DNA of 64,000 nucleotides from Odiellus spinosus. Its lineage: Eukaryota; Arthropoda; Arachnida; Opiliones; Phalangiidae. This document shows positions 2,153-64,000 of this stretch, piece after piece. The notes under the pieces were generated by a model. That model made no database searches, was not told the origin of the DNA, and saw only the letters and a list, made by a program, of their open reading frames with translations. Every line of letters starts with the position of its first letter. The stretch's first letter is position 1. The stretch lies in assembly GCA_963920705.1 (NCBI GenBank), contig OY987233.1, forward strand, positions 2,904,001-2,968,000. Reading direction: 5' to 3'. Made by a program: the position numbers and the translations under genes.

Positions 2153-2260
2153 AGGGAGAATGCAGCCTAAAAACAAGTGTTTTTTATCGATTCATTATCG
2201 TTTAAATAGGCCTAATCCAACAATAAAAAAAAATACAAACAAATATTCAACTAGTTAAAT

Positions 2261-2541
2261 CAAGGAGGATCAGAGAAGGAGAGGAAATGTGGGGACGGCG
2301 CGGTTCCTACTGCGTCGGCCTAAACTCCCACTCTGGGAGAACGGGGGTAGAGACGTTTCGTGGTAAAATGTTGTCGCGTGGGTAAAACGAATCCTTTATG
2401 AGACGCGCTAGCTAGCGACCACGTGACAACAGTTTACCTCGAGAATTTCCTATCCCCCCTTTCCACCCGAGTGGGAGGTTGGCTCTTCTCTCTCTAACTC
2501 AACGCAGCCCCACATTTCCTCTCCTTCTCTGATCCTCCTTG
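2261..2541 (+). mobile_element. MITE family E, copy 1, complete with 7-base TSD
   Basis: The 281-base element starts CAAGGAGGATCAGAGAAGGA and ends with the reverse complement; the terminal inverted repeat is about 33 bases and weaker inverted similarity continues to the centre (GCTAGCTAGC near 2409). The TSD GTTAAAT is perfect on both sides (2254-2260 and 2542-2548) and interrupts the left arm of a family D element, so this insertion is younger than its host. Confidence 0.93.
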
Positions 2542-2629
2542 GTTAAATAAATTTAAAACTTACATGGAAAATAGGCTTAGCGGGATTCATAGAAATTCTG
2601 AATTTCTTGGCATTGATGGGTACAACTCA

Positions 2630-2770
2630 AGCTGCGTTTTTACTAAGCCTTGCAATCGATTTAAACTGTTTCAAATCGTTTCGCTAGAGTCGTGTAAACG
2701 AGAAACCGTCTTTTCTCGAATCGATTTGATTCGATTTCTCGCTACTGCTTCGGGAACCAGTTTCGTACCT
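2630..2770 (+). mobile_element. MITE family B, copy 2, right part missing
   Basis: The left half of family B, from AGCTGCG to the ACCAGTTTCGTACC motif, lies in the centre of family D copy 1. The right half is missing. The frame at 2564-2794 is a by-product of this element. Confidence 0.75.
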
Positions 2771-3016
2771 AGTATAAGGACTAGCGACTATTGATCATAT
2801 AAGAGCCATCGATCAATATGATTGGTTGCAAGACCTTATATGGAGAGTTTAAGTGATCTCCATGAATCCATTTAAGCCTATTTTTCTGGTAAGTTTTAAA
2901 TTTATTTTTAGTTTAATATTTATTTGAAAACTTTGTTTACTGTGGGATTAGGCCTATTTAAACGATAAGGAATCGATAAAAAATCCATTTGCTTTTAGGT
3001 TGCATTCTCCATTTAA

Positions 3017-3649
3017 TAAGTCGTCAGGTTCGCTAACTAGTGGCCCGACGACCCACCTTGTTTTATTTTCCTTATTTTCCTCTTCTTCGATAAGAGCCCT
3101 TTTTATTTGCCACCGCGTTTTACTATACTCGAGCCGAATCCATATGGCCCACCGATGACGACGGCAACTACCCAAAAATGAGCGAACCTCCCCCCAAATT
3201 GGATTTTTTTTTTTCTTTCTTCCTCGTTGGGTCTTTCTCCAATAGCAAACTCACGAGGGTAGTAGGTAGCTTTGGATAGCTAAAGTCTCTCAAACTTACC
3301 CCCATCGGTACCGTTATTAGGCAACTAGCTAAACCTTGGGCAAAAGGGGTAGGAATATTTTTAGGGCCATTCTCTAACAGCTTTCTTATAGGTCGTTAAA
3401 ATAATAGCCACACTATAAAAGGCCTAATACCGAAGAACCTATTTAGGCGAAGAGAGATAGCTCGTAAAATATGGAGAGTAAGAAAACGAAAGATGAAACA
3501 ACATTTTCTTTTTCTATATGATATTACGTTTATACGAAATGTTAGTGTTCTTAGATATATATTAAATGTACGGCGATTTTCTCTACCCTTCTCTTTGTTT
3601 TTCTTAATTTTTAAGCTTTACTTCTGTTCTAAAATAGTTTTATAAACCT
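3017..3649. other. Unassigned sequence
   Basis: No gene or repeat family was recognised. T-rich tracts occur at 3207-3223, and a short minus-strand frame overlaps 2954-3175. Confidence 0.35.
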
Positions 3650-3994
3650 CAAGTCTATCGGACCATTGTTCCTTTAACGACCCGTAGCTTAATACTATCA
3701 GCAAACGTCCGAGAAAATCTACGGCAGATTCTGATTCGAGACACTCTAACGGTCGCAGTCTCCGTGTAAATAGTTAACGGAGAAAGCGACACTCTGCCGA
3801 GGACTACAGAAGCCTAAATTCCGTCCCTCTCTCCCGACTAAAAATATCGTGGAAGAGTCCAAATCACTCGAGCAATTCAGGGGTGATGACTTTTTTGCCT
3901 ATTTTTAAGTGATATGCTAGGACGTAAAACTGGGCTGATAGTATTAACCTACGAGGCGTTGTTTAATTTTATGGAATAAAGTGATAGACTTTCG
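3650..3994 (-). mobile_element. MITE family A, copy 2
   Basis: The right end ATGGAATAAAGTGATAGACT is well preserved, while the left end is eroded (CAAGTCTATCGGACC). The core shows GATTCTGATTCGAGACACTC near 3728, the complement of the region around the GCGGCCGC site in copy 1. The core is shortened relative to copy 1. Confidence 0.82.
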
Positions 3995-4734
3995 ATTGAA
4001 AGATTTATTAAATGTATTTGAACAAAAATAGATTTTAGTTCACCTAAATATTATGGGCAAATATCATTGAAAATTAAAATGTTTTGCCACCAGCATTTCG
4101 TACAAAAAATGTTCTCCCAATTGCAATTGTACAGTATTGATAACATATAGGAGGCATTGCTCAAATTAATGAAATAATTGAGTTTAAAAAGGGTTACAGA
4201 AATATTCCAGATATAAAATTTTGTATGTCTACGTATAGAATTTGTAGAAATGTACTCAACCATCGTATATATATATTATATCTTTCACTTTTAGTTCCAT
4301 TGTGTTCATTTCGGTAAAGGCCATTCTTAGGGGTGAAAGGAGAACTTGGGCGGAGGAATAAAAGCCAAAGGGAAGACTCGATAAGTCGAAAAGACCTCGT
4401 CGTTGATATCGGTCCTCTGATAAAGATATTGGCGACTTCCTAGACCCGACACTCTTAGCCATCAGATCTCCACCCTAACACCCCCATCGCATCGCAGCTA
4501 TTCATCCCTTACTCTAGAGAATCTGAAGGCTGCAAAAAGAGTGGGGATATTTAGTAGGATCTAACCAGGTGCGGATGGAAGATGGGATACGTGGTCCTAA
4601 TCAGTTTGATATTTCAGTACGAGAATATCACCGAACTCGCTATTAGTTGCGAGTATAAAGAAACCTTAGGGATACCTGGTAAGTCTAGTTTTATAAGCGC
4701 TGACAACTCTGACTGATTACTGACTAAAGAAGAG
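3995..4734. other. Unassigned sequence
   Basis: No gene or known repeat was recognised. The minus-strand frames at 4051-4263 and 4256-4462 have no recognisable motif and are probably chance frames. Confidence 0.35.
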
Positions 4735-4740
4735 CCTTAA

Positions 4741-4790
4741 AAGATCGACAAGAGTGAAAAGGGAGGACATTAAAAAAGTTTTTCTGCCCT
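4741..4790 (+). mobile_element. 50-base unit R, first copy, between two TTAA sites
   Basis: This unit runs from AAGATCGACAAGAGT to TTCTGCCCT and is bounded by TTAA at 4737-4740 and 4791-4794. A second copy lies at 5208-5254. The two copies bracket family S copy 1, giving the order TTAA-R-TTAA-S-TTAA-R-TTAA. Confidence 0.65.
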
Positions 4791-4794
4791 TTAA

Positions 4795-5203
4795 AGGGAC
4801 CAGGAACCTGTTTTCAAAATATCTAACTTCTCTTAATTTAGTTAGATCAAGTCATTTGAAACAAATCTTCAAATATATGTTAGTTAGAAATATCAATATT
4901 TACCACTAATTGAAATGAATAAAAACATTTTCAAAATTATTCAATTTCAAAATAATTCAATGGCCAATCACCGTCAAGATGGAGTTTGAAACCAATTAAA
5001 GATGCACGCGACTCCAATAGAGTGTAACCATGGCAACGCTCACGCCAAAAATCTCGCGCCTCTAACGTTCTTTACCTTCAAACGGAATTAGGCCCGAATT
5101 AGGCTTAGCCTAAAATGAACCAAAAGAAGCTTTTCCGAGTATAAAATTGTTTATGGTATTTTCTATAGCTCGAAACTCTCCAAACCCAGATTTCCTGGCC
5201 CCT
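4795..5203 (+). mobile_element. TTAA-flanked element family S, copy 1
   Basis: The element starts AGGGACCAGGAACCTG and ends ATTTCCTGGCCCCT, the complement being AGGGGCCAGGAAAT. TTAA lies directly outside both ends (4791-4794 and 5204-5207). The interior has two CCAAT-type motifs (GCCAATCACC, ACCAATTAAAG). It is homologous over about 330 bases to 16795-17112. TTAA plus AGGGR again fits T2/Kolobok-type termini. No reading frame of note. Confidence 0.72.
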
Positions 5204-5207
5204 TTAA

Positions 5208-5254
5208 AAGATCGACAAGAGTAAGAGGAGGACATTAAAAAAGTTTTCTTCCCT
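5208..5254 (+). mobile_element. Unit R, second copy
   Basis: It repeats AAGATCGACAAGAGTAAG through TTCTTCCCT and is bounded by TTAA at 5204-5207 and 5255-5258. It differs from the first copy by a few substitutions and small deletions. Confidence 0.62.
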
Positions 5255-5258
5255 TTAA

Positions 5259-5810
5259 GGGAAAGATTTTTTCCTATATATCCCTTATACCCATTCTCGT
5301 TAAACCTCACTCCCGAGGTTGATCATGAAACTTTAGCACGTTTTGTAAGAGTCTATAGCCCTCTGTTTTCCCTTTCTTACTTCCCAAATATACTCTACGC
5401 AGAGACATACCTATACTTATAGGTGTACTTGCAATAGGGGAGGCTAGTTAGTAAAGCTCAGTCCTCTCTATCCTTTTAGGCTCCCATTTCCCCGAAAAAA
5501 GCCTCTCCTCCTACGCAAGATCGATTTTTGTATACTTTATCTTTTCTTATATTATCGTCGCTAGACGCTAGTGTTAGAATCTTCTAACTCTACCCACTAC
5601 TTAGTTCATTCTGTTTACGTCCTCATCGCGCTTTATTTAATATTTACCTTAAAAACATAGAGCACGAAGAAAGCTTACGAATCTAGGGAGCTAAAGTTCC
5701 TGCCGCAAACTTTCCATTTCCCTAGCCATTTACTAAATTGCGTTGAGAAACGTACTCATAAGAATTTAACTATATGTAAGCTTTGATTATATTGATGAAA
5801 CAATCGCGCA
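5259..5810. other. Unassigned sequence
   Basis: No feature was recognised in this pyrimidine-rich stretch. Confidence 0.35.
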
Positions 5811-6543
5811 ATGCTACGGTCACCCTAGCATTTCTTAATCGAGTTGAATCGGAAAAATCAAACCGGTATTGAAATCACCAGGAATCGTTTTAAGCCTCAC
5901 GTGTTTACGCATTATCTTTATAAATCGATTTATTGTAGCTTCGTCCATCGTTTGTTGAAACCGAATCGGTATGAAACTGGTTCATGACAGGCCTTGGAAA
6001 CGATTTAAACTGTTTCAAAACGTTTCGCTTTAGTCGTGTGAACAGAAAACCGTCTTTACTCGATAAGATTAGATTCGATTTCTCGAAACTGCTTCGGGAA
6101 CCAGTTTCGTACCGATTCGGTTGCAACAACCTGCAACAAATCGATTTATAAAGATAATGCGTGAACGCATGCCGCTTAAAACGATTCCTTGCGATTTGAA
6201 TATCGGTTTTATTTTACCGTTTCAGATCGATTAAGGAATGCTAGTGTGACCGCAGCTGACGTAATTTCGGGAAATCGGATCAAATCAATTCGAGAAAAGA
6301 CAACTTTCCGTTCACACGACTCTATCGAAACGTTTTGGAACGGTTTAAATCGATTCCAAGGCCTAGTATGAACGCGGCTCTATCGTTTGCTGAAACCGAA
6401 TCGGTACGAAACTGGTCCCCGAAGTAGTTTCAATAAATCGAATCTTAATGATTCGAGGAAAGACGGTTTCCCGTTCACACGACTCCAGTGAATCGTTTTG
6501 GAACGGTTTAAATCGATTCCAAGGTCTCGTATGAACGCGGATG
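5811..6543. mobile_element. Cluster of nested family B MITEs
   Basis: Four family B segments lie in series: a minus segment (about 5811-5990), a plus segment (about 5990-6258) ending GTGTGACCGCAGCT, the continuing minus segment (about 6267-6379) ending TATGAACGCGGCT, and a further minus half (about 6379-6541). The simplest reading is one B inside another plus a partial tandem copy. The frames at 5905-6129 and 6189-6371 are by-products. Confidence 0.78.
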
Positions 6544-7122
6544 AAATATTTGTAACGTTGTTTTAGTTTTGCTCCAGCTCAAGCTTGATTATTGTACAAA
6601 TTTCGGGTATGAACGAAGCTTGAAAAAGTTTTTCGTTGAAATACTATTCTCCTAATACATTTTTAATATTAACTTCTTTCCAACCCTTTCCTCCGAATTT
6701 CTTTATTCGCTTTTCACTTTTTTATTGGAAAGAGTTTACGATTTTTGCGACTTTCTTAAAATAAAATCTTTCCAGTACTATACCCTGGACTTGGATTGAT
6801 ATTCAGTTTTCACTTTTAGAAAAAGAAGCCAGAAAAGAAAATTTCCTTTTTTTTTTTTTTTTTGTTTCTTTCACCTCGGATTTTTTTTTTCTTTTTTTTT
6901 TTCTTTTACTCTTTTGCGAGTTGATTTATGTACCCGTGCTCTTCGCCAATATCAATTTTTTAAAGGAAAAAAACGGTCTAACTCTTATACAGTACGTGTA
7001 TGCAAAATTTTCACCAATACTGAAGAATTCATGCCAAGAAAGCAATACATACTAAGGTAAACTACTATACAAATAATTCTGGATACAAAAAAAAAATTCA
7101 CGATTGAAAGTTAAATTGGTAT
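6544..7122. other. Unassigned T-rich sequence
   Basis: Contains long poly-T tracts near 6847-6864 and 6881-6903. No gene or repeat family was recognised. Confidence 0.4.
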
Positions 7123-7500
7123 CAAAAGTCTATAACTTTATTCCATAAAAGTAAACAACGCACAGTAGCTTAATACTATCAGCAAAGATTCGGGTAAATG
7201 TACCGGCAGATTCTGATTCGAGACACCCTAGCGGCCGCAGTCGCCGTGTAAATAGTGAACGAAGGAACGACACTCTGCGGAGAATTCAAGAAGTTGGGAC
7301 GGAAGACAATATAGCCAAGCGCGGCCCGCCTAAATTCCGTCCCTCTCACCAAACTCAAAATATCGAGCTGAAGAGTCCAAAATCACTCGAGCCAGACAGT
7401 GTGATGACTTCTTTGACTATTAAAGTTAATATCTTCCGAGTCAAAATATCGTGGAAGAGTCCAAATCATTCGAACTAGACAGGGGTGATGACTTTTTTTT
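7123..7500 (-). mobile_element. MITE family A, copy 3, right end missing, internal duplication
   Basis: The left end CAAAAGTCTATAACTTTATT and most of the core are present, including GCGGCCGC near 7231. The block from CTCAAAATATCGAG to GATGACTT occurs twice (from 7354 and 7439). The right end is replaced at about 7500 by a family K fragment. Confidence 0.82.
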
Positions 7501-7509
7501 ACAATCATA

Positions 7510-10175: not shown

Positions 10176-10368
10176 CAAAAGTCTATCACTTTATTCCATA
10201 AAAGTAAATAACACCCCGTAACTTAATACTATCAGCAAAGGTTCGGCAGATTCTGATTCGTAGACACTCTAGCGGCCGCAGTCGCCGTGTAAATAGTGAA
10301 CGAAGGAAGAACCACTTTTTGGAAAATTTCCAGAGGTTCAAATTCCGTCCCTCTCTCAAGACTCAAAA

Positions 10369-10446
10369 ACTCTCGGAAACTCCCCCGAACTCTCGGAAAC
10401 TCCCCCGAACTCTCGGAAACTCCCCCGAACTCTCGGAAACTCCCCC
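10369..10446 (+). repeat. 20-base tandem array S1, part 1
   Basis: About four units of ACTCTCGGAAACTCCCCCGA begin right after GACTCAAAA of family A. The array is interrupted at 10446 by a hAT-like MITE and continues at 10593. Confidence 0.95.
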
Positions 10447-10592
10447 CAGGGGCGTCGGAAGCGGGGGGGGGGGGGGGCAGGGTGGGCTCAAGCCCCCTCG
10501 ACCGTCGGATCTGGGGTAACCGAGCCCCATATAATTTGACCTTAGCCAACTTGTTCAGCCCACCCACTTAGTAATAACTTCCGACGCCCCTG
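10447..10592. mobile_element. hAT-like MITE with 8-base TSD
   Basis: The 146-base element has a perfect 15-base terminal inverted repeat, CAGGGGCGTCGGAAG, and the 8-base TSD ACTCCCCC (10439-10446 and 10593-10600). CAGGGGCG-type termini with 8-base TSDs are typical of hAT MITEs. It holds a run of 15 G at 10463-10477 and no coding capacity. It sits within the 20-base array. Confidence 0.9.
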
Positions 10593-10746
10593 ACTCCCCC
10601 GAACTCTCGGAAACTCCCCCGAACTCTCGGAAACTCCCCCGAACTCTCGGAAACTCCCCCGAACTCTCGGAAACTCCCCCGAACTCTCGGAAACTCCCCC
10701 GAACTCTCGGAAACTCCCCCGAACTCTCGGAAACTCCCCCGAACTC
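10593..10746 (+). repeat. 20-base tandem array S1, part 2
   Basis: About 7.5 further units of the same 20-base repeat; the first 8 bases are the TSD copy of the hAT-like insert. Minus-strand frames crossing here come from the repeat period and are not genes. Confidence 0.93.
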
Positions 10747-10760
10747 AACTCGCGCGAACA

Positions 10761-11210
10761 CTTTCGAATCCGTGAGAATTCGAACGAGCTCTTTCGAATC
10801 CGTGAGAATTCGCACGAGCTCTTTCGAATCCGTGAGAATTCGCACGAGCTCTTTCGAATCCGTGAGAATTCGCACGACCTCTTTCGAATCCGAGAGAATT
10901 CGCACGAGCTCTTTCGAATCCGTGAGAATTCGCACGAGCTCTTTCGAATCCGAGAGAATTCGCACGAGCTCTTTCGAATCCGAGAGAATTCGCACGAGCT
11001 CTTTCGAATCCGAGAGAATTCGCACGAGCTCTTTCGAATCCGAGAGAATTCGCACGAGCTCTTTCGAATCCGTGAGAATTCGCACGAGCTCTTTCGAATC
11101 CGTGAGAATTCGCACGAGCTCTTTCGAATCCGAGAGAATTCGCACGAGCTCTTTCGAATCCGTGAGAATTCGCACGAGCTCTTTCGAATCCGTGAGAACT
11201 CTTACAAATT
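10761..11210 (+). repeat. 30-base tandem array S2
   Basis: Fourteen units of CTTTCGAATCCGTGAGAATT + CGCACGAGCT, then a degenerate unit from 11181. Units differ mainly at one site (CGTGAG or CGAGAG): reading left to right T,T,T,T,A,T,A,A,A,A,T,T,A,T. As 30 is divisible by 3 and the unit lacks stops in several frames, open frames of 150-206 codons appear on both strands; they are not evidence of a gene. Confidence 0.95.
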
Positions 11211-11266
11211 TGGAAGAACTCTAAGTCAATTGGAACGAATTCGAACAACTCACACATGAACTCCAG

Positions 11267-11282
11267 GAATTCACGTGAATTC
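11267..11282. repeat. 16-base perfect palindrome
   Basis: GAATTCACGTGAATTC lies in the degenerate tail right of the 30-base array, inside family A copy 4. It may be a relic of diverged array units. Confidence 0.7.
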
Positions 11283-11395
11283 AGGTGTACACAAAAAAAC
11301 GAAGAGCCTATCCCTTCGGTTTACCCGGCCCTTTGATGATAATATTAAGCTACGGGGCGTTGTTTACTTTTATGCAATAAAATGATTTTCTTTTG

Positions 11396-11962: not shown

Positions 11963-11969
11963 TTGAGGA

Positions 11970-15906: not shown

Positions 15907-16243
15907 CAGAAGCCGATGAAACCCTCCTTTGAATTCTATTACTCCCGGGTCTTGTCTACCCCTCTCTGTATGGGTTAGTTTCATTAAGGGCGATTCGTAC
16001 GCCACCTAATGGTAGATATTTTCGGAGCGGGAGTTCGTCGAGCGAATATCTCTAGCAGCCTTGGAGTTCGTCAAAAAAACGTCGTCGTTTGTGGAGAGAG
16101 AGAATTTCCAATTTTCCATAGACAGGGGGTATGAAGTAGGACCCCTCCGATCTCGTAAAATCGTGAATTTTACCCATACAGAGAGGAGCGCTATATGGAA
16201 CATTAGAGTAGTAGACTTCAAAGGAGGGTTTCATCGGCTTCTG
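15907..16243 (-). mobile_element. MITE family C, copy 1, 7-base TSD
   Basis: Family C is a 327-339 base MITE with a strong terminal inverted repeat, CAGAAGCCGATGAAACCCTC followed by CTTTGAA. This 337-base copy has a perfect 7-base TSD CTAATAT (15900-15906 and 16244-16250). + orientation is set by copy 2. Several short frames on both strands here are by-products. Confidence 0.94.
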
Positions 16244-19166: not shown

Positions 19167-19482
19167 CAAGAATCCATTAAGGTTCCATAAGAATATGGGA
19201 GTATAGCTTTAGCCTCTGGTACCATCCTCCCAAACTTTGTAACAAAAGTTCGTCTGCAATTTTCGCAACATTTGTACGCTTAGATCTTTTTTCGGTCGGC
19301 TCCATTTTTATTACCCAAAATATTATGTCAAAGTGATAATGGCGCGGGTTAATAATATAATGTCAGGAGCGATTTACTTGAAAAATCGATTCGAAGCAGA
19401 CGAACTTTTGCTACAAAGTTTGGGAGGATGGTTATTGAATCGCGGCCCTCCCATATTCTTATGGAACCTGAATGGATTCTTG
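19167..19482 (+). mobile_element. MITE family H, copy 1, complete, 7-base TSD
   Basis: The 316-base element starts CAAGAATCCATTAAGGTTCC and ends GGAACCTGAATGGATTCTTG. Inverted similarity extends about 95 bases, through CCATCCTCCCAAACTTTGTA. The 7-base TSD ATTTGAT is perfect (19160-19166 and 19483-19489). Confidence 0.94.
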
Positions 19483-30673: not shown

Positions 30674-30989
30674 CAAGAATCTATTCAGGTTCCATAAGAA
30701 TATGGGAGGGCCTCGATTCAAAAACCATCCTTCCAAACTTTGTAGAAAAAGTTCGTCGGCTTCGAATCGATTTTTCAAGTAAATCGCTCCTGACATTATA
30801 TTATTAACCCGCGCCACTAACGACCTTGACATAATATTTGGGTAATAAAAATGGAGCCGACCGAAAAAAGATCTAAGCGTACAAATGTTGCGAAAATTGC
30901 GGACGATCTTTTGTTACAAAGTTTGGAAGGATGGTACCAGAGGCTAAAGCTATGCTCCCATATTCTTATGGAACCTTAATGGATTCTTG
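30674..30989 (-). mobile_element. MITE family H, copy 2, complete, 7-base TSD
   Basis: It is 316 bases, the same length as copy 1, in the opposite orientation. It starts CAAGAATCTATTCAGG and ends CCTTAATGGATTCTTG. The TSD GTAATAC is perfect (30667-30673 and 30990-30996) and differs from the Galileo consensus GTAGTAC by one base. Confidence 0.95.
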
Positions 30990-33272: not shown

Positions 33273-35008
33273 GCGCGATTGCGGGAGCGATTAAAGCGCG
33301 ATTGCGGGAGCGATTAAAGCGCGATTGCGGGAGCGATTAAAGCGCGATTGCGGGAGCGATTAAAGCGCGATTGCGGGAGCGATTAAAGCGCGATTGCGGG
33401 AGCGATTAAAGCGCGATTGCGGGAGCGATTAAAGCGCGATTGCGGGAGCGATTAAAGCGCGATTGCGGGAGCGATTAAAGCGCGATTGCGGGAGCGATTA
33501 AAGCGCGATTGCGGGAGCGATTAAAGCGCGATTGCGGGAGCGATTAAAGCGCGATTGCGGGAGCGATTAAAGCGCGATTGCGGGAGCGATTAAAGCGCGA
33601 TTGCGGGAGCGATTAAAGCGCGATTGCGGGAGCGATTAAAGCGCGATTGCGGGAGCGATTAAAGCGCGATTGCGGGAGCGATTAAAGCGCGATTGCGGGA
33701 GCGATTAAAGCGCGATTGCGGGAGCGATTAAAGCGCGATTGCGGGAGCGATTAAAGCGCGATTGCGGGAGCGATTAAAGCGCGATTGCGGGAGCGATTAA
33801 AGCGCGATTGCGGGAGCGATTAAAGCGCGATTGCGGGAGCGATTAAAGCGCGATTGCGGGAGCGATTAAAGCGCGATTGCGGGAGCGATTAAAGCGCGAT
33901 TGCGGGAGCGATTAAAGCGCGATTGCGGGAGCGATTAAAGCGCGATTGCGGGAGCGATTAAAGCGCGATTGCGGGAGCGATTAAAGCGCGATTGCGGGAG
34001 CGATTAAAGCGCGATTGCGGGAGCGATTAAAGCGCGATTGCGGGAGCGATTAAAGCGCGATTGCGGGAGCGATTAAAGCGCGATTGCGGGAGCGATTAAA
34101 GCGCGATTGCGGGAGCGATTAAAGCGCGATTGCGGGAGCGATTAAAGCGCGATTGCGGGAGCGATTAAAGCGCGATTGCGGGAGCGATTAAAGCGCGATT
34201 GCGGGAGCGATTAAAGCGCGATTGCGGGAGCGATTAAAGCGCGATTGCGGGAGCGATTAAAGCGCGATTGCGGGAGCGATTAAAGCGCGATTGCGGGAGC
34301 GATTAAAGCGCGATTGCGGGAGCGATTAAAGCGCGATTGCGGGAGCGATTAAAGCGCGATTGCGGGAGCGATTAAAGCGCGATTGCGGGAGCGATTAAAG
34401 CGCGATTGCGGGAGCGATTAAAGCGCGATTGCGGGAGCGATTAAAGCGCGATTGCGGGAGCGATTAAAGCGCGATTGCGGGAGCGATTAATTCGCGATTG
34501 CGGGAGCGATTAATGCGCGATTGCGGGAGCGATTAATGCGCGATTGCGGGAGCGATTAATGCGCGATTGCGGGAGCGATTAATGCGCGATTGCGGGAGCG
34601 ATTAATGCGCGATTGCGGGAGCGATTAATGCGCGATTGCGGGAGCGATTAATGCGCGATTGCGGGAGCGATTAATGCGCGATTGCGGGAGCGATTAATGC
34701 GCGATTGCGGGAGCGATTAATGCGCGATTGCGGGAGCGATTAATGCGCGATTGCGGGAGCGATTAATGCGCGATTACGGGAGCGATTAATGCGCGATTGC
34801 GGGAGCGATTAATGCGCGATTGCGGGAGCGATTAATGCGCGATTACGGGAGCGATTAATGCGCGATTGCGGGAGCGATTAATGCGCGATTGCGGGAGCGA
34901 TTAATGCGCGATTACGGGAGCGATTAATGCGCGATTACGGGAGCGATTAATACGCGACTACGCGAGCGATTACGGTGCGATTATTGATCGATTACGGTTC
35001 GATTAAAA
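33273..35008 (+). repeat. 23-base satellite array, about 73 units
   Basis: The unit is GCGCGATTGCGGGAGCGATT + AAA. From 33273 to about 34490 units look identical. At 34491 one unit reads AATTCGCG, then units change to the GATTAATGCG form up to about 34952. In the last part GATTACGGG replaces GATTGCGGG at 34773, 34842, 34911 and 34934, so three units make a 69-base higher-order repeat. The end (34953-35008) is degenerate: GCGATTACGGTGCGATTATT. The unit holds two GCGATT copies 11-12 bases apart. There are no CRISPR-like spacers. Confidence 0.97.
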
Positions 35009-36101: not shown

Positions 36102-36438
36102 CAGAAGCCGATGAAACCCTCCTTTGAAGTCTACTACTCCAATGTTCCATATAGCGCTTCTCTCTGTATGGGTAAAATTCACAATTTTACGAGTTAGAAG
36201 GGGTCCTACTTCATCCCCCCAGTCTACGGACAATTGGAAATTCTCTCTCTCCACAAACGACGACGTTTTTTGGACGAACTCCAAGGCTGCTAGAGATTTT
36301 CGCTCGACGAACTCCCGCTCCGAAAACATCTACCGTTAGGAGGCGTACGGATCGCGCCTTTTGAGAATAACCCATACAGAGAGGGGTAGACAAGACCCGG
36401 GAGTAATAGACTTCAAAGGAGGGTTTCATCTACTTCTG
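36102..36438 (+). mobile_element. MITE family C, copy 2
   Basis: Complete 337-base copy, eight bases right of family A copy 5. Flanks GTAATAG and GTAAAGG agree at five of seven positions, consistent with a decayed 7-base TSD. The frames at 36063-36329, 36124-36339 and 36211-36429 are by-products. Confidence 0.9.
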
Positions 36439-37684: not shown

Positions 37685-37735
37685 GAAGTGTTTGAGGATT
37701 TTTCTTGGGCTTATTTTAATTTAATCAGAAGCCGA

Positions 37736-38062
37736 TGAAACCCTCCTTTGAAGTCTATTACTCCCGGGTCTTGTTTACCCCTCTCTGTATGGGTTAGTTT
37801 CAAAAAGCGCGATTCGTACGCCTCCTAACGGTAGATATTTTCGGTGCGGGAGTTCGTCGAGCGAATATCTCTAGCAGCCTCGGAGTTCGTCAAAAAAACG
37901 TCGTCGTTTGTGGAGAGAGAGAATTTCCTATTTTCCGTAGAAAGGGGGTATGAAGTAGGACCCCTCTGATCTCGTAAAATTAGGAATTTTACCCATACAG
38001 AGAGGCGCGCTATATGGAACATTAGAGTAGTAGACTTCAAAGGAGGGTTTCATCGGCTTCTG
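37736..38062 (-). mobile_element. MITE family C, copy 3, 7-base TSD
   Basis: Complete 327-base copy starting CAGAAGCCGATGAAACCCTC, with a perfect 7-base TSD ATTTAAT (37729-37735 and 38063-38069). It lies inside element N. Confidence 0.94.
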
Positions 38063-39838: not shown

Positions 39839-40310
39839 ATAGGCCTCGGAATCGATTTAAACCGTTTCAAAACGATTCCCTAAAGTCGTATGAACCAAGG
39901 TTAGTAAAGAGACAGGTTAGGCAGATTCTGACGTCAGCCGGAAGTTACCTAGCGCGCAGCCATCTTCCAAATTCCTTTGACAATTGCTAGATGGCGGTTT
40001 ATATTGTAATTACGGCGGGAATTTCAAACTAATATCCAATATGTTGTTTCCAATGAACGTCAAAGGAATTTGGAAGATGGCTGCGCGCTAGGTAACTTCC
40101 GGCTGACGTCAGAATCTGCCTAACCTGTCTCTTTACTAACCTTGGTATGAACGGGAAGCAGTCTTTTCACGAATCGATTTGATTCGATTTCTCGAAACTG
40201 CTTCGGGAACCAGTTTCGTACCGATTCGTTTCAACAACCGATAGATGAAGTTACGATAAATCGATTTATAAAGATAACGCGTGAACACCGCTTAAAACAA
40301 TTTCCTGCGA
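39839..40310 (+). mobile_element. MITE family B split by family I, right end missing
   Basis: AGCCGCGTTCATAGGCC starts the element; family I (39896-40144) interrupts it at GTCGTATGAAC; it resumes with GTATGAACGGGAAG and stops near AATTTCCTGCGA, where a family K fragment begins. Confidence 0.83.
39896..40144 (+). mobile_element. MITE family I, copy 1, 8-base TSD
   Basis: The 249-base element has a perfect inverted repeat of about 86 bases starting CAAGGTTAGTAAAGAGACAG. The 8-base TSD GTATGAAC (39888-39895 and 40145-40152) is part of the host family B. The unpaired part is AATTGCTAGATGGCGG to CCAATGAACG. Confidence 0.95.
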
Positions 40311-42755: not shown

Positions 42756-43036
42756 CAAGGAGGATTAGACAAGGAGAGGAAATGTGGGGCTGCGTTGAGT
42801 TAGAGAGAGAAGAGCCAACCTCCCACTCGGGTGGAAAGGGGGGATAGGAAATTCTCGAGGTAAACTGTTGTCACGTGGTCGCTAGCTAGCGCGTCTCATA
42901 AAGGATTCGTTTTACCCACGCGACAACATTTTACCACGAAACGTCTCTACCCCCGTTCTCCCAGAGTGGGAGTTTAGGCCGACGCAGTAGGAACCGCGCC
43001 GTCCCCACATTTCTTCTCCTTGTCTAATCCTCCTTG
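42756..43036 (-). mobile_element. MITE family E, copy 2, complete, 7-base TSD
   Basis: It is 281 bases, the same length as copy 1, in the opposite orientation. It starts CAAGGAGGATTAGACAAGGA and has a perfect 7-base TSD GTAAAAG (42749-42755 and 43037-43043). Confidence 0.95.
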
Positions 43037-50237: not shown

Positions 50238-51182
50238 ATTTTACAAGCGGCTGCCCAGATTTTACAAGCGGCTGCCCAGATTTTACAAGCGGCTGCCCAG
50301 ATTTTACAAGCGGCTGCCCAGATTTTACAAGCGGCTGCCCAGATTTTACAAGCGGCTGCCCAGATTTTACAAGCGGCTGCCCAGATTTTACAAGCGGCTG
50401 CCCAGATTTTACAAGCGGCTGCCCAGATTTTACAAGCGGCTGCCCAGATTTTACAAGCGGCTGCCCAGATTTTACAAGCGGCTGCCCAGATTTTACAAGC
50501 GGCTGCCCAGATTTTACAAGCGGCTGCCCAGATTTTACAAGCGGCTGCCCAGATTTTACAAGCGGCTGCCCAGATTTTACAAGCGGCTGCCCAGATTTTA
50601 CAAGCGGCTGCCCAGATTTTACAAGCGGCTGCCCAGATTTTACAAGCGGCTGCCCAGATTTTACAAGCGGCTGCCCAGATTTTACAAGCGGCTGCCCAGA
50701 TTTTACAAGCGGCTGCCCAGATTTTACAAGCGGCTGCCCAGATTTTACAAGCGGCTGCCCAGATTTTACAAGCGGCTGCCCAGATTTTACAAGCGGCTGC
50801 CCAGATTTTACAAGCGGCTGCCCAGATTTTACAAGCGGCTGCCCAGATTTTACAAGCGGCTGCCCAGATTTTACAAGCGGCTGCCCAGATTTTACAAGCG
50901 GCTGCCCAGATTTTACAAGCGGCTGCCCAGATTTTACAAGCGGCTGCCCAGATTTTACAAGCGGCTGCCCAGATTTTACAAGCGGCTGCCCAGATTTTAC
51001 AAGCGGCTGCCCAGATTTTACAAGCGGCTGCCCAGATTTTACAAGCGGCTGCCCAGATTTTACAAGCGGCTGCCCAGATTTTACAAGCGGCTGCCCAGAT
51101 TTTACAAGCGGCTGCCCAGATTTTACAAGCGGCTGCCCAGATTTTACAAGCGGCTGCCCAGATTTTACAAGCGGCTGCCCAG
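50238..51182 (+). repeat. 21-base tandem array, 45 units
   Basis: The unit is ATTTTACAAGCGGCTGCCCA + G, repeated exactly 45 times (945 bases) with no variant seen by eye. It is open in all three plus frames; one, 50172-51221, would give 22 residues, then 45 heptads ILQAAAQ, then 12 residues. Since all frames are open by period, this is weak evidence for coding. Right of the array TTTATTTGTTTTTCAG|GTGT resembles a splice acceptor. Confidence 0.97.
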
Positions 51183-51814
51183 ATTGTTTATTTGTTTTTC
51201 AGGTGTATACGGTTATGGTAACAACAACTTAGCTTAAATTGCCTTCAAACGGTCGGCTACTCCCTCTAAAATTCCTCCAAGATATTTCTAAATTAAAGCA
51301 CTCTCTTTCGTAAATTTTTTTTTCGCTATCCCGTGAAACTTATTAAAAACGCTTAATTGAAACAAATTACTTTCAAATTGCGGCGAGCTTTATAAAAATG
51401 AAGCTTGGACGAAAATTACAAAAGGAGGAAAAAAAGCTTAAACACTAATTGAGCTCCTTTTCTTAATTGTTTGCAACTAGTAATTAAAAACGTGTGGTTT
51501 TTCTCAATTTGGGTTTTTTTTTTTTTTTTTTTTTTTTACTTTCTGGTGTTGCTCCTTTTACATATTTAGGTCATTTGTAAAACGTCAGGATATAATGGTT
51601 ATAACGCTAAAAGAAAAATTAGTTCATAAAATATTCATAGCATTTTTATGGTTAGTAAATAAACTACCTTTTTGAAAAAAAAAATAATTATAATAATAAT
51701 AATTAAGAAAACAAAAAGGATAATGGAAAATCAATTTGTTTAAATTTTAACAGATATGTTTTTGCATCCATAAGGAATATAGGTCTACAAATAAAAGCAT
51801 TGTTCATATTAGTA
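51183..51814. other. Unassigned AT-rich sequence
   Basis: Contains poly-T at 51517-51538 and A/T-rich low-complexity sequence near 51676-51720. No gene recognised. Confidence 0.4.
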
Positions 51815-53058: not shown

Positions 53059-53439
53059 CAAAAGTCTATCAATTTATTCCATAAAAGTAAACAACGCCCC
53101 GTAGCGTAATACTATCAGCAATGGTCCAGTATTACGTCATAGCCCATCACTTAAAAATAGACAAAAAATTCATCACCCCTGTCTGGCTCGAGTGATTTGG
53201 ACTCTTCCACGGTATTTTGAGTCTGGAGAGATGGACGGTATTTAGGCGGGCCGCGCTTGGCTATATTGTCTTCCCTCCCAAATCGGCGGAATTTCTCCAA
53301 AGAGTGGCGTTTCCTCCGTTTACTATTTACACCAAGTGTCTCGAATCAGAATCTGCCGGTACATTTACCCCGAACCTTTGCTGATAGTATAAAGCTACGG
53401 GCGTTGTTCACTTTTATGGAATAAAGTGATAAAATTTTG
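53059..53439 (+). mobile_element. MITE family A, copy 10, near-perfect 7-base TSD
   Basis: Full length with ends CAAAAGTCTATCAATTTATT and ATAAAGTGATAAAATTTTG. Flanks GTAGAAT and GTAGAGT agree at six of seven positions. The GCGGCCGC segment is deleted. Confidence 0.92.
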
Positions 53440-53985: not shown

Positions 53986-53989
53986 ATGC

Positions 53990-56258: not shown

Positions 56259-56299
56259 TGAATAAAATTTTTAGTTAAATCATTTGATTTTATACCACA

Positions 56300-57165: not shown

Positions 57166-57169
57166 TATA

Positions 57170-58090: not shown

Positions 58091-58853
58091 CAAAAGTCTA
58101 TCACTTTATTACATAAAAGTAAACAACTACCCGTAGCGTAATACTATCAGTAGAGGCCCATTTTTACGTCATAGCTCATCACTTAAAATTATATAAAAAG
58201 TTATCACCCGTGTCTGCCTCAAATGATTTGGACTCTTCCTCAATATTTTGAGTCGGGAGAGTGGGGCGGAATTTAGGCGGGCCGCGTTTGACTATATTGT
58301 CTTCGGTTTGCGTCCTCTTGCGCAGTTTCCCACTTGCGCATTTTCATTTGCGCAGTAGCCATTTGCGCATTTCCATTTGCGCGGTTTGCCATTTGCGTGG
58401 TTTGCCATTCGAGCTGTCCACAAGAGGGACAGGCTAGTTCGAGTGATTAACTAACCAAACCTAACATAACCTGCAAATGAACAGTGTGCAAATGAAAAAA
58501 GCGCAAATGAAAAACTGCGCAAATGAAAAACTGCGCAAATGAAAAACTGCGCAAATGAAAAACTGCGCAAATGAAAAACTGCGCAAATGAAAAACTGCGC
58601 AAAAGGAAATGCGCTTGTGGGAAATGCGCAAAAGGGAACTGAGCAATTGGAAACTTACCTTTTCTTCCCCCAACTCCAGGAATTTCTCCGCAGAGTGGCG
58701 CTTCCTCCGTTCACAATTTACATGGTGACTACGGTCGTTAGAATGTGACAGTGTCACGAATCAGAATCTGCCGATACATTTACCCTGACGTTTGCTGATA
58801 GTATTAAGTTACGGGGCATAGTTTACTTTTATGGAATAAAGTGATAGACTTTG
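58091..58853 (+). mobile_element. MITE family A, copy 12, split by a fold-back with tandem arms
   Basis: Left end CAAAAGTCTATCACTTTATT; family A continues to TATATTGTCTTC at 58304, then a foreign block (58305-58663), then A resumes with CTTCCCCCAACTCC and ends AAAGTGATAGACTTTG. CTTC on both sides may be a 4-base duplication. Confidence 0.88.
58305..58663. mobile_element. Foldback-type insert with tandem repeats in its arms
   Basis: The left arm has about six TTTGCGCA-type units (58313-58405), and the right arm has six perfect 16-base units GCGCAAATGAAAAACT (58501-58596) plus variants, so the arms pair. The middle reads CGAGCTGTCCACAAGAGGGA and ACCAAACCTAACATAACC. Arms built of short tandem repeats resemble Foldback elements of Drosophila. 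The minus frame 58461-58757 is a repeat by-product. Confidence 0.75.
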
Positions 58854-59540
58854 GGAAACAAATTTAACTTCATTTTAAATTATATTTAGAATTTGGGTTA
58901 AGCACTAATTGAGTTTAATTATTCAAGTAACAGGTTCACAAAAACATCCGTGATTTCTGAATAAACTTCACCCTTAATAATTACGAACTGAGTGAGTATA
59001 CGACACTAAAAATAGGATTGATGCTACTAGGCATCTTTTACAATTTTGTCAGGTTGTAATCCTACTCGATTGGTTAGGATCTTCGTGGATTTCTCGCTTC
59101 CGCGAAGCGCTTCGCTATCACCGTGAATTTTAATGACTTTTAGAATAAAGAAGAAAAAAAAAATATGTTCGTTGAAGCTTGAAATCCTCGTCTCTACCCT
59201 CATCACCCAACGATTGCTAAAAGCTTTAGCATCGTGGGGTCCGCGAAGAAGCCAAGTTTTTAAACTCAATTTATTTGCATCCCAATTTTTTTTTTTTTTT
59301 TTTTTTTATTTTTTTCAGAGATGGATCATAAGGCTTAAGAGGCAAAATTTCTCCGAAACCTAGGATGAGATGAAAGGTGGGTTTTCATGTTTTGCTTATG
59401 ATGTATTAAGCCTATAATGAACTCATCTAAAATATGTAATTCACTAGGTACGTCTGTCTGTCTGTCTGGAATGCTGAAATACACACGAAAACTTAGATGC
59501 ACTATGATAAACTTCGATATAAATTGAATTTGCATATTTA
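58854..59540. other. Unassigned sequence
   Basis: A perfect 14-base palindrome GCGAAGCGCTTCGC lies at about 59102-59115 and a poly-T tract at 59287-59307. TCACTAGGTACGTCTGTC at about 59442 recalls 8217. The overlapping frames at 59027-59269 and 59133-59363 show no recognisable domain. Confidence 0.35.
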
Positions 59541-59856
59541 TTTTAAATTGAATTTATTTTCGGAATCACCATGACAAATTTTTTGGAATTTGTAGACACG
59601 CTTAATGTGTTTAAATTAATTTCTGTATCGTAAATTTTAATAAAAGTAAGTATAAATTCGGGTTAATCATATTATTTTAGCCTTCAACAGTGCTTGTAAT
59701 GTCGTAACATTAAAAGAATAGGCCGGCGTTCGATGCCTAAGACATTGGGCATCAAACCCCGTCCTATTCTGTCAAGGTTAGTATATTACAAGCACTGTTA
59801 AAGGCTGAAATAATATGATTGGCCCGAATTTATATTTCCATTAAGTAAATTTTACT
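59541..59856. mobile_element. Fold-back MITE family G, both outer ends missing
   Basis: Left arm from TTTATTTTCGGAATCACCAT, centre AATAGGCCGGCGTTCGATG, right arm to ATATGATTGGCCCGAATTTA, where it breaks off. Confidence 0.82.
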
Positions 59857-60231
59857 GCCGACTTTGAATTAAATTAAAGCTTATGTGAAGATTGTCAGAA
59901 AATATTCACGTGAAAATTCAACTTCAAAGCGATGGCCGATGAAAAATAAGGGGTGTATGAGAAAATTGAGGTGATAGGGAGCCGCTGGTGATCAACTTTT
60001 TAGAAAATGGGATGAGGATGAAAAGGGATGAAGATTGAAATAAAAAGAATGTTGAACGAAAAGGGGCTAAAGAAGTCGGCTTCGAGAGAGTGCTGGTTAT
60101 AAAGCTTTGGCTTTTTCCCTTCCCACTCGTCAGGCTCTCGACAGATTTGCTCCTGTTTGAGTAAACAGATTTTTGTATCGCCGGAAAAATTATGGTCTAA
60201 AGGTTCTTTCACAAACCCCAAACAAACGGAC
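59857..60231. other. Unassigned sequence
   Basis: No gene or repeat recognised; the minus frame 60000-60395 runs from here into family A and its poly-A tract. Confidence 0.35.
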
Positions 60232-60345
60232 GGTGTAAATAGTGAATGGAGGAAGCGCCACTCTTTGGAGAAATTGCGGAGTTGGGGTGGGGAGACAATA
60301 TAGCCAAGCGCGGCCCGCCTAAATCCCAACACTCTCTCTCGACTC

Positions 60346-60376
<31 letters not shown>

Positions 60377-60520
60377 GGGGAAGAGTCCAAATCACTCGAG
60401 CCAGACAGGGGTGATGACTTTTTGGCTATTTTTAAGCGATGGGCTATGACGTAAAACTGGACCTTTGCTGATAGTTTTAAGCTAAGAGGCGTTGTCTACT
60501 TTTTTGGAATAAAGTGATAT
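60232..60520 (-). mobile_element. MITE family A, copy 13, left part missing, poly-A expansion
   Basis: Begins at GGTGTAAATAGTGAATGG and ends near AATAAAGTGATATT. Where other copies read GACTCAAAATATCG this one has a run of 29 A (60346-60374). This is the same internal site at which the satellites of copy 4 begin. Confidence 0.87.
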
Positions 60521-61161
60521 TTTAATTCAGTTTATTTCATTTGGACTTTTTTAGCCTAAATTAGTTGATTTCTGCTCATTGGGTAAGCTAATATTAAACA
60601 TTTCCGACGAAGTGTATAACTCAGATTATCTTTCATATTATTAATTTTCACGCAATATATAAATTAAAAAAACTTAAGTTTTAGTTTACTAAATCGTTTT
60701 AGAATGGCTCTGCCATCTTCTATTATTAAACTATAAATTCCTTCAGCACCATAAACACTCGAGACCAATTAAAATTTTCTAAATATATTTTAATACCATC
60801 TATATTAAATTTTCAGACGAAAAAAAAAACGAAAAACAATAGCCCCCATATATTTCGCGAGATCAAAAATTTAATTAAATAGGCCGTGGTACTAAAACCC
60901 TAGAGTATTATAGAGCTTGTAAAGCGATTTTTCTTCTTTTTCCCCCCAGTTTCCTTAATTCCCTATGCCACCTCTCTCCGTCTAGGAACCCCTAAACTTT
61001 TAATGAGACGGAATATACCGCAATTCGATCTTGTCTATTAAATGTTCTTAAGCAACTCCCTCCCCCACTGAAGTTCTCCCAGCGACTCCGCTTCTTCTTT
61101 CACATCCCTTCACCATGGAGGAACTAAAGATGGAGTCACAGACTAAATTCTTCAGATTTAT
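60521..61161. other. Unassigned sequence
   Basis: No gene or repeat family was recognised. Confidence 0.35.
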
Positions 61162-61664
61162 CAGAAGTCTATCACTTTATTCCATAAAAGTAAACAACGC
61201 CCTGTAGCTTAAAGGTCTATGATTTATTTTGCCTCTCACCCGCCTGTTTCACTGGAAGTGGGCTCACTTTCTGAGCTTCCCCTTGGAAAGCGAGGCAAGA
61301 GAAAGCCTGGAGGGTGAGTTTGTTTCCAGGGTGACAGGCAGAAGTAACCCTAGGCCTTCAATAATATCAGCAAAGGACCAGGTAAACGTACTAGCCCATC
61401 ACTTAAAACTAGCCAAAAAAGTCATCACCCCTGTCTAGCTCGAGTGATTTGGACTCTTCCTCGATATTTTGAGTCAGGAGAGGGACGGAATTTAGGCGGG
61501 CCGCGCTTGACTATATCGTCTTCCCCGCAAATCCGGAATTTCTCTCCATTTACACCATCTGGGGCCGAGAAAGTGTCTCGTATCAGAATCAACCCGAACC
61601 TTTGCTGATAGTATTAAGCTACAGGACGTTGTTTACTTTTAAGGAATAAAGTGAAAGACTTTTG
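61162..61664 (+). mobile_element. MITE family A, copy 14, with a foreign insert
   Basis: Left end CAGAAGTCTATCACTTTATT, right end AGTGAAAGACTTTTG; flanks GATTTAT and GTCTTAT agree at five of seven positions. A block of about 148 bases interrupts the left inverted repeat between TAGCTTAA and TAATATCAGC. The GCGGCCGC region is deleted to GGGGCCGAG. Confidence 0.87.
61213..61360. mobile_element. Insert in family A copy 14
   Basis: Composition is unlike the surroundings (CCCGCCTGTTTCACTGG, GAGGCAAGAGAAAGCCTGG). TGCCTCTCACCC at 61230 pairs with GGGTGACAGGCA ending at 61340 with one mismatch, suggesting a small inverted-repeat element; 15-20 bases each side remain unexplained. No TSD found. Confidence 0.5.
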
Positions 61665-61976
61665 GTCTTATAAAGGCGACCTAGTTCGGCTTGATAGTTA
61701 AAAACAAATACTACTTCAGTTATGTTAGAACCAACCTATTCTGTATACGTATTTTTCTAGTCCAACGACAAAATGGGTTAGAATTAAAAACTAGTTGTCG
61801 TTTATGACATCTGTTAAAGCCGACGGGTAGGGGTAATTTTTTTTTGTTAAGGAGATTCAATAGTTAGTTCATAGTTACAAAACCTAAACCGATTTCCAGC
61901 CTTTTGAAGAATCAAATTGAATATTGAAGATAGTATTTATATTTGTTGATCAAAGATCTACACGGGCAAGGTTAGT

Positions 61977-62531
61977 AAAGAGACAGGTTAGGCAGATTCT
62001 GACGTCAGCCGGAAGTTACCTAGCGCGCAGCCATCTTCCAAATTCCTTTGACAATTGCTAGATGGCGGTTTATATTGTAATTACGGCGGGAATTTCAAAC
62101 TAATATCCAATATGTTGTTTCCAATGAACGTTGCCAGGTGGCACTTAGTAATTCGATTGTCATATAGCGTAGGTAACGCTTTAACATACGTTTCACTATA
62201 ATCAAGCATAAATATATATATATATATAATTTATATATATATAATTTATATATATATAATTTATATATTATAATTTTTAAGCAGACGCCGGTCGTTCAGT
62301 TTAGTTCAGTTCAGTTCGTATTCCACTCAGTCGCTTGAGTCGGCTTGACCTTAATGCCACCTGGCAACGTTCATTGGAAACAACATATTGGATATTAGTT
62401 TGAAATTCCCGCCGTAATTACAATATAAACCGCCATCTAGCAATTGTCAAAGGAATTTGGAAGATGGCTGCGCGCTAGGTAACTTCCGGCTGACGTCAGA
62501 ATCTGCCTAACCTGTCTCTTTACTAACCTTG
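61977..62531. mobile_element. MITE family I, copy 2, long fold-back, 8-base TSD
   Basis: The ends CAAGGTTAGTAAAGAGACAG match copy 1 and the TSD TACACGGG is perfect (61969-61976 and 62532-62539). Unlike copy 1 the arms pair for about 165 bases, to GTTGCCAGGTGGCA. The unpaired centre (about 62145-62350) holds an AT microsatellite and TTCAGTTTAGTTCAGTTCAG. Confidence 0.95.
62210..62275. repeat. AT-rich minisatellite in family I
   Basis: Repeated AATTTATATATATAT units of about 15-17 bases follow an (AT)n run. It lies at the centre of family I copy 2 and may favour cruciform extrusion. Confidence 0.85.
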
Positions 62532-62539
62532 TACACGGG

Positions 62540-63435
62540 AAACCCCAAAATTTATAAATTGGCCTTTCTAAACCGGTTCAAAACCGGTTTGGTATGATCG
62601 TAGATTTGTAGAATTATCAATCAGCTACTCCCTCTACAGTTCCTCCGAGCCTTCACTCTTGAGGGAAAAGGAAACGAAGAGAGAATAGCATCCGCGTACG
62701 AGACTCCGAGAAACTTACAGGAAAACTCTTTTAGTATTACAAGTTCTTCCTTCTCGGTATTTCTCTTTCAATACCGAGAACCAGGCGAGGATTGTACCAC
62801 GAGTAAAGCTCGAATAGCGAAAAAATAAGCGCAAGGAGTTTTGTAAACTAAGAGTGATTGCTTTAACTATATATGTACGTTTCTATCGTCTCTCGTACTT
62901 TTCCTTCGACGTGTAAGCATCAATGCGTATCTTCTGGAAGAGCATCGCGAAAGGAAGCTCGGGAAAAAGAGCCCGAAGATGTACGAAGTTCGTTTCATCC
63001 GCGATGTTTGATACTAAAATCTATATAACGCTACCAACATTAAGCTTCGAGAAACGAGTGGCGCGTTATCTACGCGATTGGGGATAAGTTGGAAATGAAA
63101 TGAACTTCGTATAAAAAGGGGGATAGAGGGCCCAGGCAATGACGCGTATTTAGTGAAGCGTAAAAATGATTGCAGTCCTGACTAAATTGATTGGGAATAA
63201 GGAAGGTTCGGGGGTATAAGGGGTGAGTAAGGAAAAACTCAACGAACCTAAGGATTCGCTTTCTTATTCCTTATTCCTTACAATAATACTTCATAAGTAT
63301 CTTCCTCTTTATCGTAAGACCTATAGCTATCGTATCTACTTATACGAAGTAAAGCGTACTTAAAGGGATAATAGTCTCTGGAAACAAGTTATTTTTAATC
63401 GATTTAGACAACCAAAACGGGTATGTAGGTATATT
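62540..63435. other. Unassigned CpG-rich unique block
   Basis: No gene found. A 9-base-stem hairpin (CTCGGTATT/AATACCGAG, 62753-62778), the inverted pair AAACCGGTTCAAAACCGGTT near 62571, and a solitary TTAA-AGGGATAATAG terminus followed by a family F-like TTATTTTTAATCGATTTAGA (63359-63415) were noted. Confidence 0.4.
63110..63118 (+). promoter_or_regulatory. Possible TATA box
   Basis: TATAAAAAG followed by a G-rich stretch. No initiator consensus or reading frame downstream; likely chance. Confidence 0.12.
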
Positions 63436-63774
63436 CAGAAGCCGATGAAACCCTCCTTTGAAGTCTACTACTCCAATGTTACATATAGCGCTCCTCTCTG
63501 TATGGGTAAAATTCCCAATTTTACGAGATCGGAGGGGTCCTACTTCATACCCCTCTGTCTACGGAAAATTGGAAATTCTCTCTCTCTCCACAAACGATGA
63601 CGTTTTTTGGACGAACTCCAAGGCTGCTAGAGATATTCGCTCGACGAGCTCCCGCTCCGAAAACATCTACCGTTAGGAGGCGTACGGATCGCGCCTTTTG
63701 AGAATAACCCATACAGAGAGGGGTAGACAAGACCCGGGAGTAATGACTTCAAAGGAGGTTTTCATCGGCTTCTG
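63436..63774 (+). mobile_element. MITE family C, copy 4, 7-base TSD
   Basis: The 339-base copy starts CAGAAGCCGATGAAACCCTC. The 7-base TSD GTATATT is perfect (63429-63435 and 63775-63781). Frames at 63458-63676 and 63545-63730 are by-products. Confidence 0.94.
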
Positions 63775-64000
63775 GTATATTTCAATGAGCAACGCTATTT
63801 TAAAACCAAGTGTAAGAAATAATATAGACATATGTCGGTGATACGTTGTCAAAAATTAGCCTGGGGTCTCCTAAAGACCCTACACTTTACCTCTACCCTG
63901 TGTAGAGTCAGTGACCTTATTTTGTTAACTCGTAAAGTTACTACGCATTAAAAATTTGCTATTGTCAGACGGTGTTTTCATTTGCGTGTAAATATCTAAC

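Follow-up and report, generated by a model that had tools for sequence, protein, structure and literature searches.

Inverted ends that begin with CA are a feature of the P superfamily of cut-and-paste elements, and the Drosophila P element has such ends, as do the miniature inverted-repeat transposable elements (MITEs) that are our subject here. These fall into four families, A, C, E and H, and were found in a 64,000-nucleotide (nt) stretch of the genome of Odiellus spinosus (Arachnida; Opiliones), called the window below (contig C11:2904001-2968000 of an assembly of 443 Mb in 286 contigs; genome coordinates are written contig:position, so that C1, C2 and so on are contigs, distinct from MITE family C). 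Very probably, all four are non-autonomous MITEs of the P-superfamily branch that duplicates seven bases, moved by a P transposase of the THAP/RNase-H type that is encoded elsewhere, cuts with a 17-nt stagger, inserts at a palindromic target and leaves scars made of end stubs. The assignment to P is well supported for C and E and less so for H and A, with A provisionally placed by its ends and a few duplications only. The families are new, while P-MITEs as a kind are already known.

Several described systems resemble these families in part. The Drosophila P element has a THAP transposase and a 17-nt stagger that would explain stub scars (PMC7776569), and its target, as described, is also a palindrome reaching three bases past the duplication, a 14-bp motif with the same geometry as the 13-bp motif found here (PMC3276498, PMC4168063); it differs in its 8-base duplication and its target GTCCGGAC (PMC3276498). 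The element 1360/Hoppel is reported to make a 7-base duplication (274 of 279 sites) at the target GTTNAAC, with T at position 2 (T2) and A at position 6 (A6) (PMC3276498), a likeness of duplication and target. Galileo, also of Drosophila, makes mostly 7-base duplications at a palindromic T2/A6 target that extends past the duplication, but in the account of PMC4168063 its preferred site is GTANTAC and its inverted repeats are long and repetitive inside. In the families described here the target is RYWNWRY (R, purine; Y, pyrimidine), with a T favoured at -3 and an A at +10; members of C, E and H measure roughly 280-345 bp and lack such long repetitive ends, whereas A copy 4 (1220 bp) does hold minisatellites. 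The P-MITEs of Anopheles gambiae are likewise short, non-autonomous elements with inverted repeats that are moved by P transposases, and their 44 to 571 copies outnumber 3 to 41 coding elements; they are described as having 8-base duplications and end regions in common with a known P master (PMC1562414), whereas the Odiellus families duplicate seven bases, E has about 1,860 copies, and no master was found in the searches reported below.

An earlier note on the window had listed eight elements of the four families with perfect 7-base duplications. When the eight were recovered, all of these duplications proved exact, every element starts with CA and finishes with TG, and the letter counts over the eight 7-mers were correct (T2 in 7/8, A6 in 7/8, purine first in 7/8, pyrimidine last in 7/8). 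The copies in the window, one of which (C copy 2) was absent from that list, are as follows.

2261..2541, minus strand: E MITE copy 1, 281 bp, TCAGAG-end subfamily, duplication GTTAAAT
42756..43036, plus strand: E MITE copy 2, 281 bp, TTAGAC-end subfamily, duplication GTAAAAG
15907..16243, plus strand: C MITE copy 1, 337 bp, duplication CTAATAT
36102..36438, minus strand: C MITE copy 2, 337 bp, decayed duplication GTAATAG/GTAAAGG with 2 mismatches
37726..38062, plus strand: C MITE copy 3, 337 bp, duplication ATTTAAT
63436..63774, minus strand: C MITE copy 4, 339 bp, duplication GTATATT
19167..19482, minus strand: H MITE copy 1, 316 bp, duplication ATTTGAT
30674..30989, plus strand: H MITE copy 2, 316 bp, duplication GTAATAC
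10176..11395, plus strand: A element copy 4, 1220 bp, internal 20-bp and 30-bp minisatellites, duplication GAACTAC
53059..53439, plus strand: A family copy, 381 bp, duplication GTAGAAT/GTAGAGT with one mismatch
539..912, plus strand: A family copy, 374 bp, no recognisable duplication (4/7 mismatched)

The MITEs have strong inverted repeats, and E reads as an imperfect palindrome over its whole length (68% when compared with its own complement). Tandem repeats were found in none of the window's C, E and H copies; those of A copy 4 lie at 10368-11198 (20-bp unit, 100% matches; 30-bp unit, 96% matches). Another MITE family in the window (39896-40144 and 61967-62531) has ends CAAGGTTAGTAAAGAGACAG and 8-base duplications, GTATGAAC and TACACGGG, and the 165-bp end segments of its two window copies are identical.

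Target duplications were then counted in a larger sample, restricted to copies that reach both ends. Searches of the genome DNA scored 40 candidates per family, out of 2,426 for C, 615 for E and 1,209 for H; the sample consisted of the window, 30 loci each of C and E extended by 1,500 bases in both directions, 14 later-fetched E ends, and copies lying by chance in fetched stretches, with the window's own copy (L009) dropped. It is tilted toward the best-scoring copies and holds only four H copies. An exact 7-base duplication flanks 82 of the 92 full-length copies, eight of which come from the window (E 47/47, C 32/41, H 3/4), and the remainder has one mismatch in four C copies and one H copy and two or more in five C copies. 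A scan for duplications of 5-9 bases also recovered the 8-base family of the window, and seven is therefore a property of these families that was not forced by the method. In family A, nine paired ends, some of which may combine ends from different copies, gave one exact duplication, three with one mismatch and five with two or more; A is older than the other families.

Measured against local AT content, T2 occurs in 62 of the 82 exact sites (binomial P 4e-15) and A6 in 61 (P 2e-14). With both strands pooled, T2 and A6 each reach 75%, the rest being mostly C2 and G6, and R1 and Y7 each reach 70%. Outside the duplication, R at -1 and T at -3 (65%) are favoured and are mirrored at +8 and +10 (A at +10, 65%), and beyond three flanking bases the information is at most 0.02 bits per position. 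The target is a weak 13-bp palindrome that extends three bases past the duplication on either side. The earlier note had proposed a genome-wide logo as a check; over the 82 sampled sites the 7-base target is the palindrome RYWNWRY. The likeness to Galileo that it had drawn holds for the duplication length and for T2/A6 and is otherwise loose, as at least five of the six defined positions of GTANTAC are matched at 8/82 sites only. The targets of P, 1360, Galileo and hobo are all described with T2 and A last but one (PMC4168063, PMC3276498); since the motif is common to P and to the hAT element hobo, it cannot alone separate P from hAT. The duplication length of seven favours 1360/Galileo-like P elements. 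One E copy (L050, C2:24481456-24481736) is inserted in repeats of ACCTAACCTAAC, which we take to be the arthropod-type telomere unit; the repetitive target makes its two flanks alike over 12 bases.

P transposases are encoded in the same genome. The search for PF21787, the RNase H domain of P transposases, returned 386 candidates, and the 150 matches that were scored all lie above the curated cut-off; THAP domains were above cut-off in four of the six P open reading frame (ORF) pieces scanned. We fetched 2.2 kb upstream for 20 P loci, 1 kb downstream for 12, and the end regions of a second copy for three. One complete P element (C2:31541208-31545155; 3,948 bp) has a 727-amino-acid (aa) open frame, whose RNase H match is at C2:31542880, inverted CATAGCCGCC ends of the form CA...TG, and the duplication ATTAAAT, with T2 and A6. 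At least one P element here therefore makes a 7-base duplication beside CA ends. Two further P families start with CATAGACTAAG and CATGGACTC, boundaries set where two copies of each stop matching, and their flanking 7-mers (GTCTGTC, ATATTAT, GTGTGAA, ACTACAC) have Y2 and R6 in three of four. A 14-mer-pair search for ends on 12 P loci gave mostly chance pairs, and both ends could be closed for the 727-aa element only; in the 856-aa and the 626-aa P families the fetched stretches stop short of the 3' end. The putative 5' boundary of an 801-aa P family at position 803 does not start with CA. Paired P transposase domain matches about 5.9 kb apart recur (C1:3543467/3549399, C1:7186502/7192434, C45:1397525/1391642) and may mark a larger duplicated unit or a compound element.

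In the 856-aa P family, of which L104 and L117 are identical copies, two 31-bp palindromes lie in the 3' part; each is composed of the family's own end and its inverse and is flanked by an exact 7-base duplication, CTTCTTA and TTCTTAC. One of these scars retains 17 nt of the 5' end, and the boundary of the other is ambiguous, from 17 to 21. The Drosophila P transposase is described as cutting 17 nt inside its ends on one strand, which distinguishes P among characterised cut-and-paste elements (PMC7776569). The scars and this stagger together led us to search the genome for an end followed, after 0-30 bases, by the inverted end. For E, such two-end palindromes occur at 12 sites and measure 18-30 bp, with none of 31-48 bp; for C there are 40, whose lengths run from 20 to 46 bp and peak at 31 and at 37-38, 19 of them being at most 34 bp. 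Reversed-pattern controls gave 0 for each. Among the H matches listed (100 of 107), there are six overlapping opposite-strand pairs, of 28, 34, 34, 34, 38 and 44 bp. The H sites and most C sites are given as coordinates without letters, and the three 34-bp H sites could be one sequence that was copied.

Where letters are available, in six E sites and four distinct C sequences, the stubs are 7-16 nt long. Four of these E sites belong to the 12 and the other two have a right stub shorter than 9 nt; an imperfect E scar at C3:19692463 is excluded from the count. These letters came from patterns that demanded the first 12 bases of the end and excluded MITE letters further inward, which favours left stubs from 12 nt to the low or middle twenties. 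The E junctions show an overlap of 1-2 bases in four of six, and their 3' flank has Y2 and R6 in all six. Three further E sites read CAAGGAGGATCCTCCTTG, the same 18 bp, a sequence that would presumably arise if two overhangs annealed at GATC. The E and C stub lengths fit a 17-nt staggered P cut.

Several traits of P elements thus occur together: a duplication within the 7-8 bases made by P elements, a palindromic target that runs past it, inverted CA ends in the four families and at three P-element ends, and a long staggered cut, seen indirectly in the short palindromes of E (12 sites), C (40) and H (6). Another P element, Pdre2, is reported to begin with CATACC (PMC10983969). The inference of the earlier note is borne out in part: P-type mobilisation is supported, by the 7-base palindromic target, the P domains, a P element that combines CA ends with a duplication of seven bases, and the end-stub scars. 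In the mechanism that we propose, a transposase, presumably a P transposase of the THAP/RNase-H type encoded elsewhere, would pair both CA...TG ends and cut exactly at the 3' ends of the element and, on the other strand, probably some 17 nt inside. Insertion would take place over a 7-base stagger at the weak palindromic target (T at -3, T2, A6, A at +10). The donor break would retain the inner stubs, and its two 3' overhangs may be rejoined, often at short complementary stretches, to yield palindromic scars of 18-46 bp.

Other readings of the families and of the scars have to be weighed. CA ends are also common in hAT elements, and the families could be a hAT lineage with an unusual 7-base duplication; however, the E and C sites carry inverted-repeat stubs, and hAT excision is not known to leave 10-17 nt of inverted repeat. 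The hobo target GTNCGNAC also has T2 and A last but one (PMC3276498, Table 4), but hobo duplications are given as 8 bases at 1,196 of 1,198 sites (PMC3276498), against seven in 47 of 47 for E and the exact seven, in place of the eight typical of hAT, in 82 of 92 copies overall. A hAT origin is accordingly improbable in our view. Less probable still is an origin in a different superfamily that duplicates 6-7 bases, for example Dada: its duplication length would suit (PMC3706591), but the U6 and U1 families described there have no terminal inverted repeats and target small RNA genes (PMC3706591), whereas the MITEs here have strong inverted repeats and varied target 7-mers, and we give this reading hardly any weight. 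The short palindromes might instead be internal-deletion derivatives or tiny mobile elements. Three C sites have the same 28 bases and a 37-bp span (C1:1532724, C1:1540107, C2:26146784), three E sites are identical over 18 bp, some sites may be mutual copies, and all H and most C sites are known as coordinates only, all of which would suit this idea. On the other side, the E sites all measure at most 30 bp in a search up to 48 (P 3e-5 for an even spread), the lettered junctions vary in kind, some of them overlapping by 1-2 bases, and a P element carries two palindromes of this structure whose 7-base flanks match; we therefore think it unlikely that the palindromes are anything other than scars.

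Some observations nonetheless weigh against the assignment of the families to P. The C scar lengths have no peak at 34, and 21 of the 40 are longer than 34 bp, which would need filler DNA or longer stubs; matching 7-mers on both sides are known at the P-element scars alone and not at MITE scars; some scar sites may be copies of one another; and no A, C, E or H scar was found in the 358,809 bases of fetched sequence. The three resolved P ends start with CAT, the MITEs with CAA or CAG. For two of the P ORFs, those of 727 and 626 aa, Pfam found neither a THAP domain nor any other family in the N-terminal piece that was fetched. None of the searches made turned up an autonomous element that ends like A, C, E or H. 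In the 2.2 kb upstream of the 20 P loci, the five A-, C- or H-like sites (at most 3/16 mismatched) all lie inside transposase frames; the first 100 E ends listed, all on contig 1, form 43 pairs of 275-292 bp plus 14 unpaired ends; and E, C and H 12-mers joined to a non-MITE interior gave 55, 127 and 107 matches (reversed controls 17, 9 and 40), of which none among those listed (55, 100 and 100) is within 6 kb of the 150 PF21787 places. The earlier note had suggested a search for a P/THAP transposase flanked by MITE ends; the domains are present in the genome, and no transposase with these ends was found among the loci and listed matches compared.

Individual candidates for a partner were rejected one by one. 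The C-like end before a P ORF (L083, position 735, 15/18 letters) lies inside a 781-aa frame and has no inverted partner, and we attribute it to chance; the four other A- or H-like upstream sites are inside transposase frames too, and a sixth site (L086; seven rows, six sites in all) is a match to the 8-base family. Degenerate end patterns upstream of the 20 P loci matched once for A/C/H and not at all for E, against 3.05 and 2.35 for shuffled patterns. All 14 unpaired E ends belong to full-length E MITEs (14/14), with the second end taken as mutated, and an E pair 2.7 kb from a P match (C1:8059673) spans 281 bp and is a MITE. A stricter E pattern with a non-MITE interior had 0 matches. Two inward-facing C ends 7.8 kb apart (C15:4649586 and 4657367) delimit no element, the left one being itself a 38-bp palindrome.

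These searches also brought up E-like and H-like repeats. Repeated E-like starts read CAAGGAGGATCAAACC at four places and CAAGGAGGATCATTG at two. A near-identical repeat starting CAAGGAGGATCAAACCAC at C2:32536912, C6:3811095, C15:3311322 and C15:3379152 has 12 bases in common with the E end and is a possible relative. H-like 12-mers in the same orientation lie 6,678-6,679 bp apart at four places (C2:18909487/18916165, C4:12477699/12484377, C6:21160321/21167000, C11:21490158/21496836) and are perhaps direct terminal repeats of an unrelated element.

The earlier note had further held that a single P-like transposase moves all four families. C and E indeed have the same duplication length and motif (H copies are too few to judge), and the first 13 bases of A, C and H are alike: their matches add up to 25, where shuffling gives a mean of 15.2 (P 0.00045), in a test chosen after the ends had been seen. 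E ends, however, match those of A, C and H at only 2-6/13, roughly the shuffled level, and the genome contains many different P sequences, any of which could produce this target. With E unlike the others and no autonomous partner found in these searches, the claim is not supported, and we consider a single transposase for all four unlikely. The three resolved P-element ends match each other at 8-9/13, and other pairs also reach 7-8/13 (7 for E and the 626-aa P end, 8 for the 8-base family and the same end); the comparison of ends is therefore a weak guide, and the existence of at least two end groups among the MITEs is weakly suggested.

The exact 19-base end of family E occurs 1,857 and 1,860 times genome-wide (control 0), which implies about 1,860 copies or somewhat more. 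Among 100 E ends listed there are two forms, which differ together at two positions. The best 40 of the 615 matches to the TTAGAC copy (42756..43036) are 100% identical over 281 bp, and because these 40 scored matches are identical, we conclude that E spread recently. One tentative possibility is that a separate P-type end group, with CAA/CAG ends and a 7-base target, is active in this genome, and that a P transposase with other ends probably moves E in trans, a family with some 1,860 copies, many of them identical, and no surviving full-length element that has its ends.

Apart from the transposons, the window contains a 23-bp minisatellite (33273-34972; 73.9 copies, 99% matches) in its stretch of highest GC skew and a 21-bp minisatellite (50238-51185; 45.1 copies, 100% matches) inside two overlapping frames of 349 and 340 aa. 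Repeats are abundant in the window overall, and of the 11 open frames there that reach 110 aa or more, several lie within minisatellites.

When no master is known, a MITE is often placed in a superfamily on the strength of its ends and the length of its duplication. Excision scars add an independent test, as a P-type cut should leave at most 17 nt per end, a trace that can be counted in an assembly, and their genome-wide occurrence raises the usefulness of this addition to the known P-MITEs. If the flanks confirm the scars, P-type MITEs that have lost their master could be recognised from sequence alone, and the cutting stagger could be read for P lineages never studied at the bench. In Odiellus spinosus itself, E may be a P-MITE whose mobility is recent or current.

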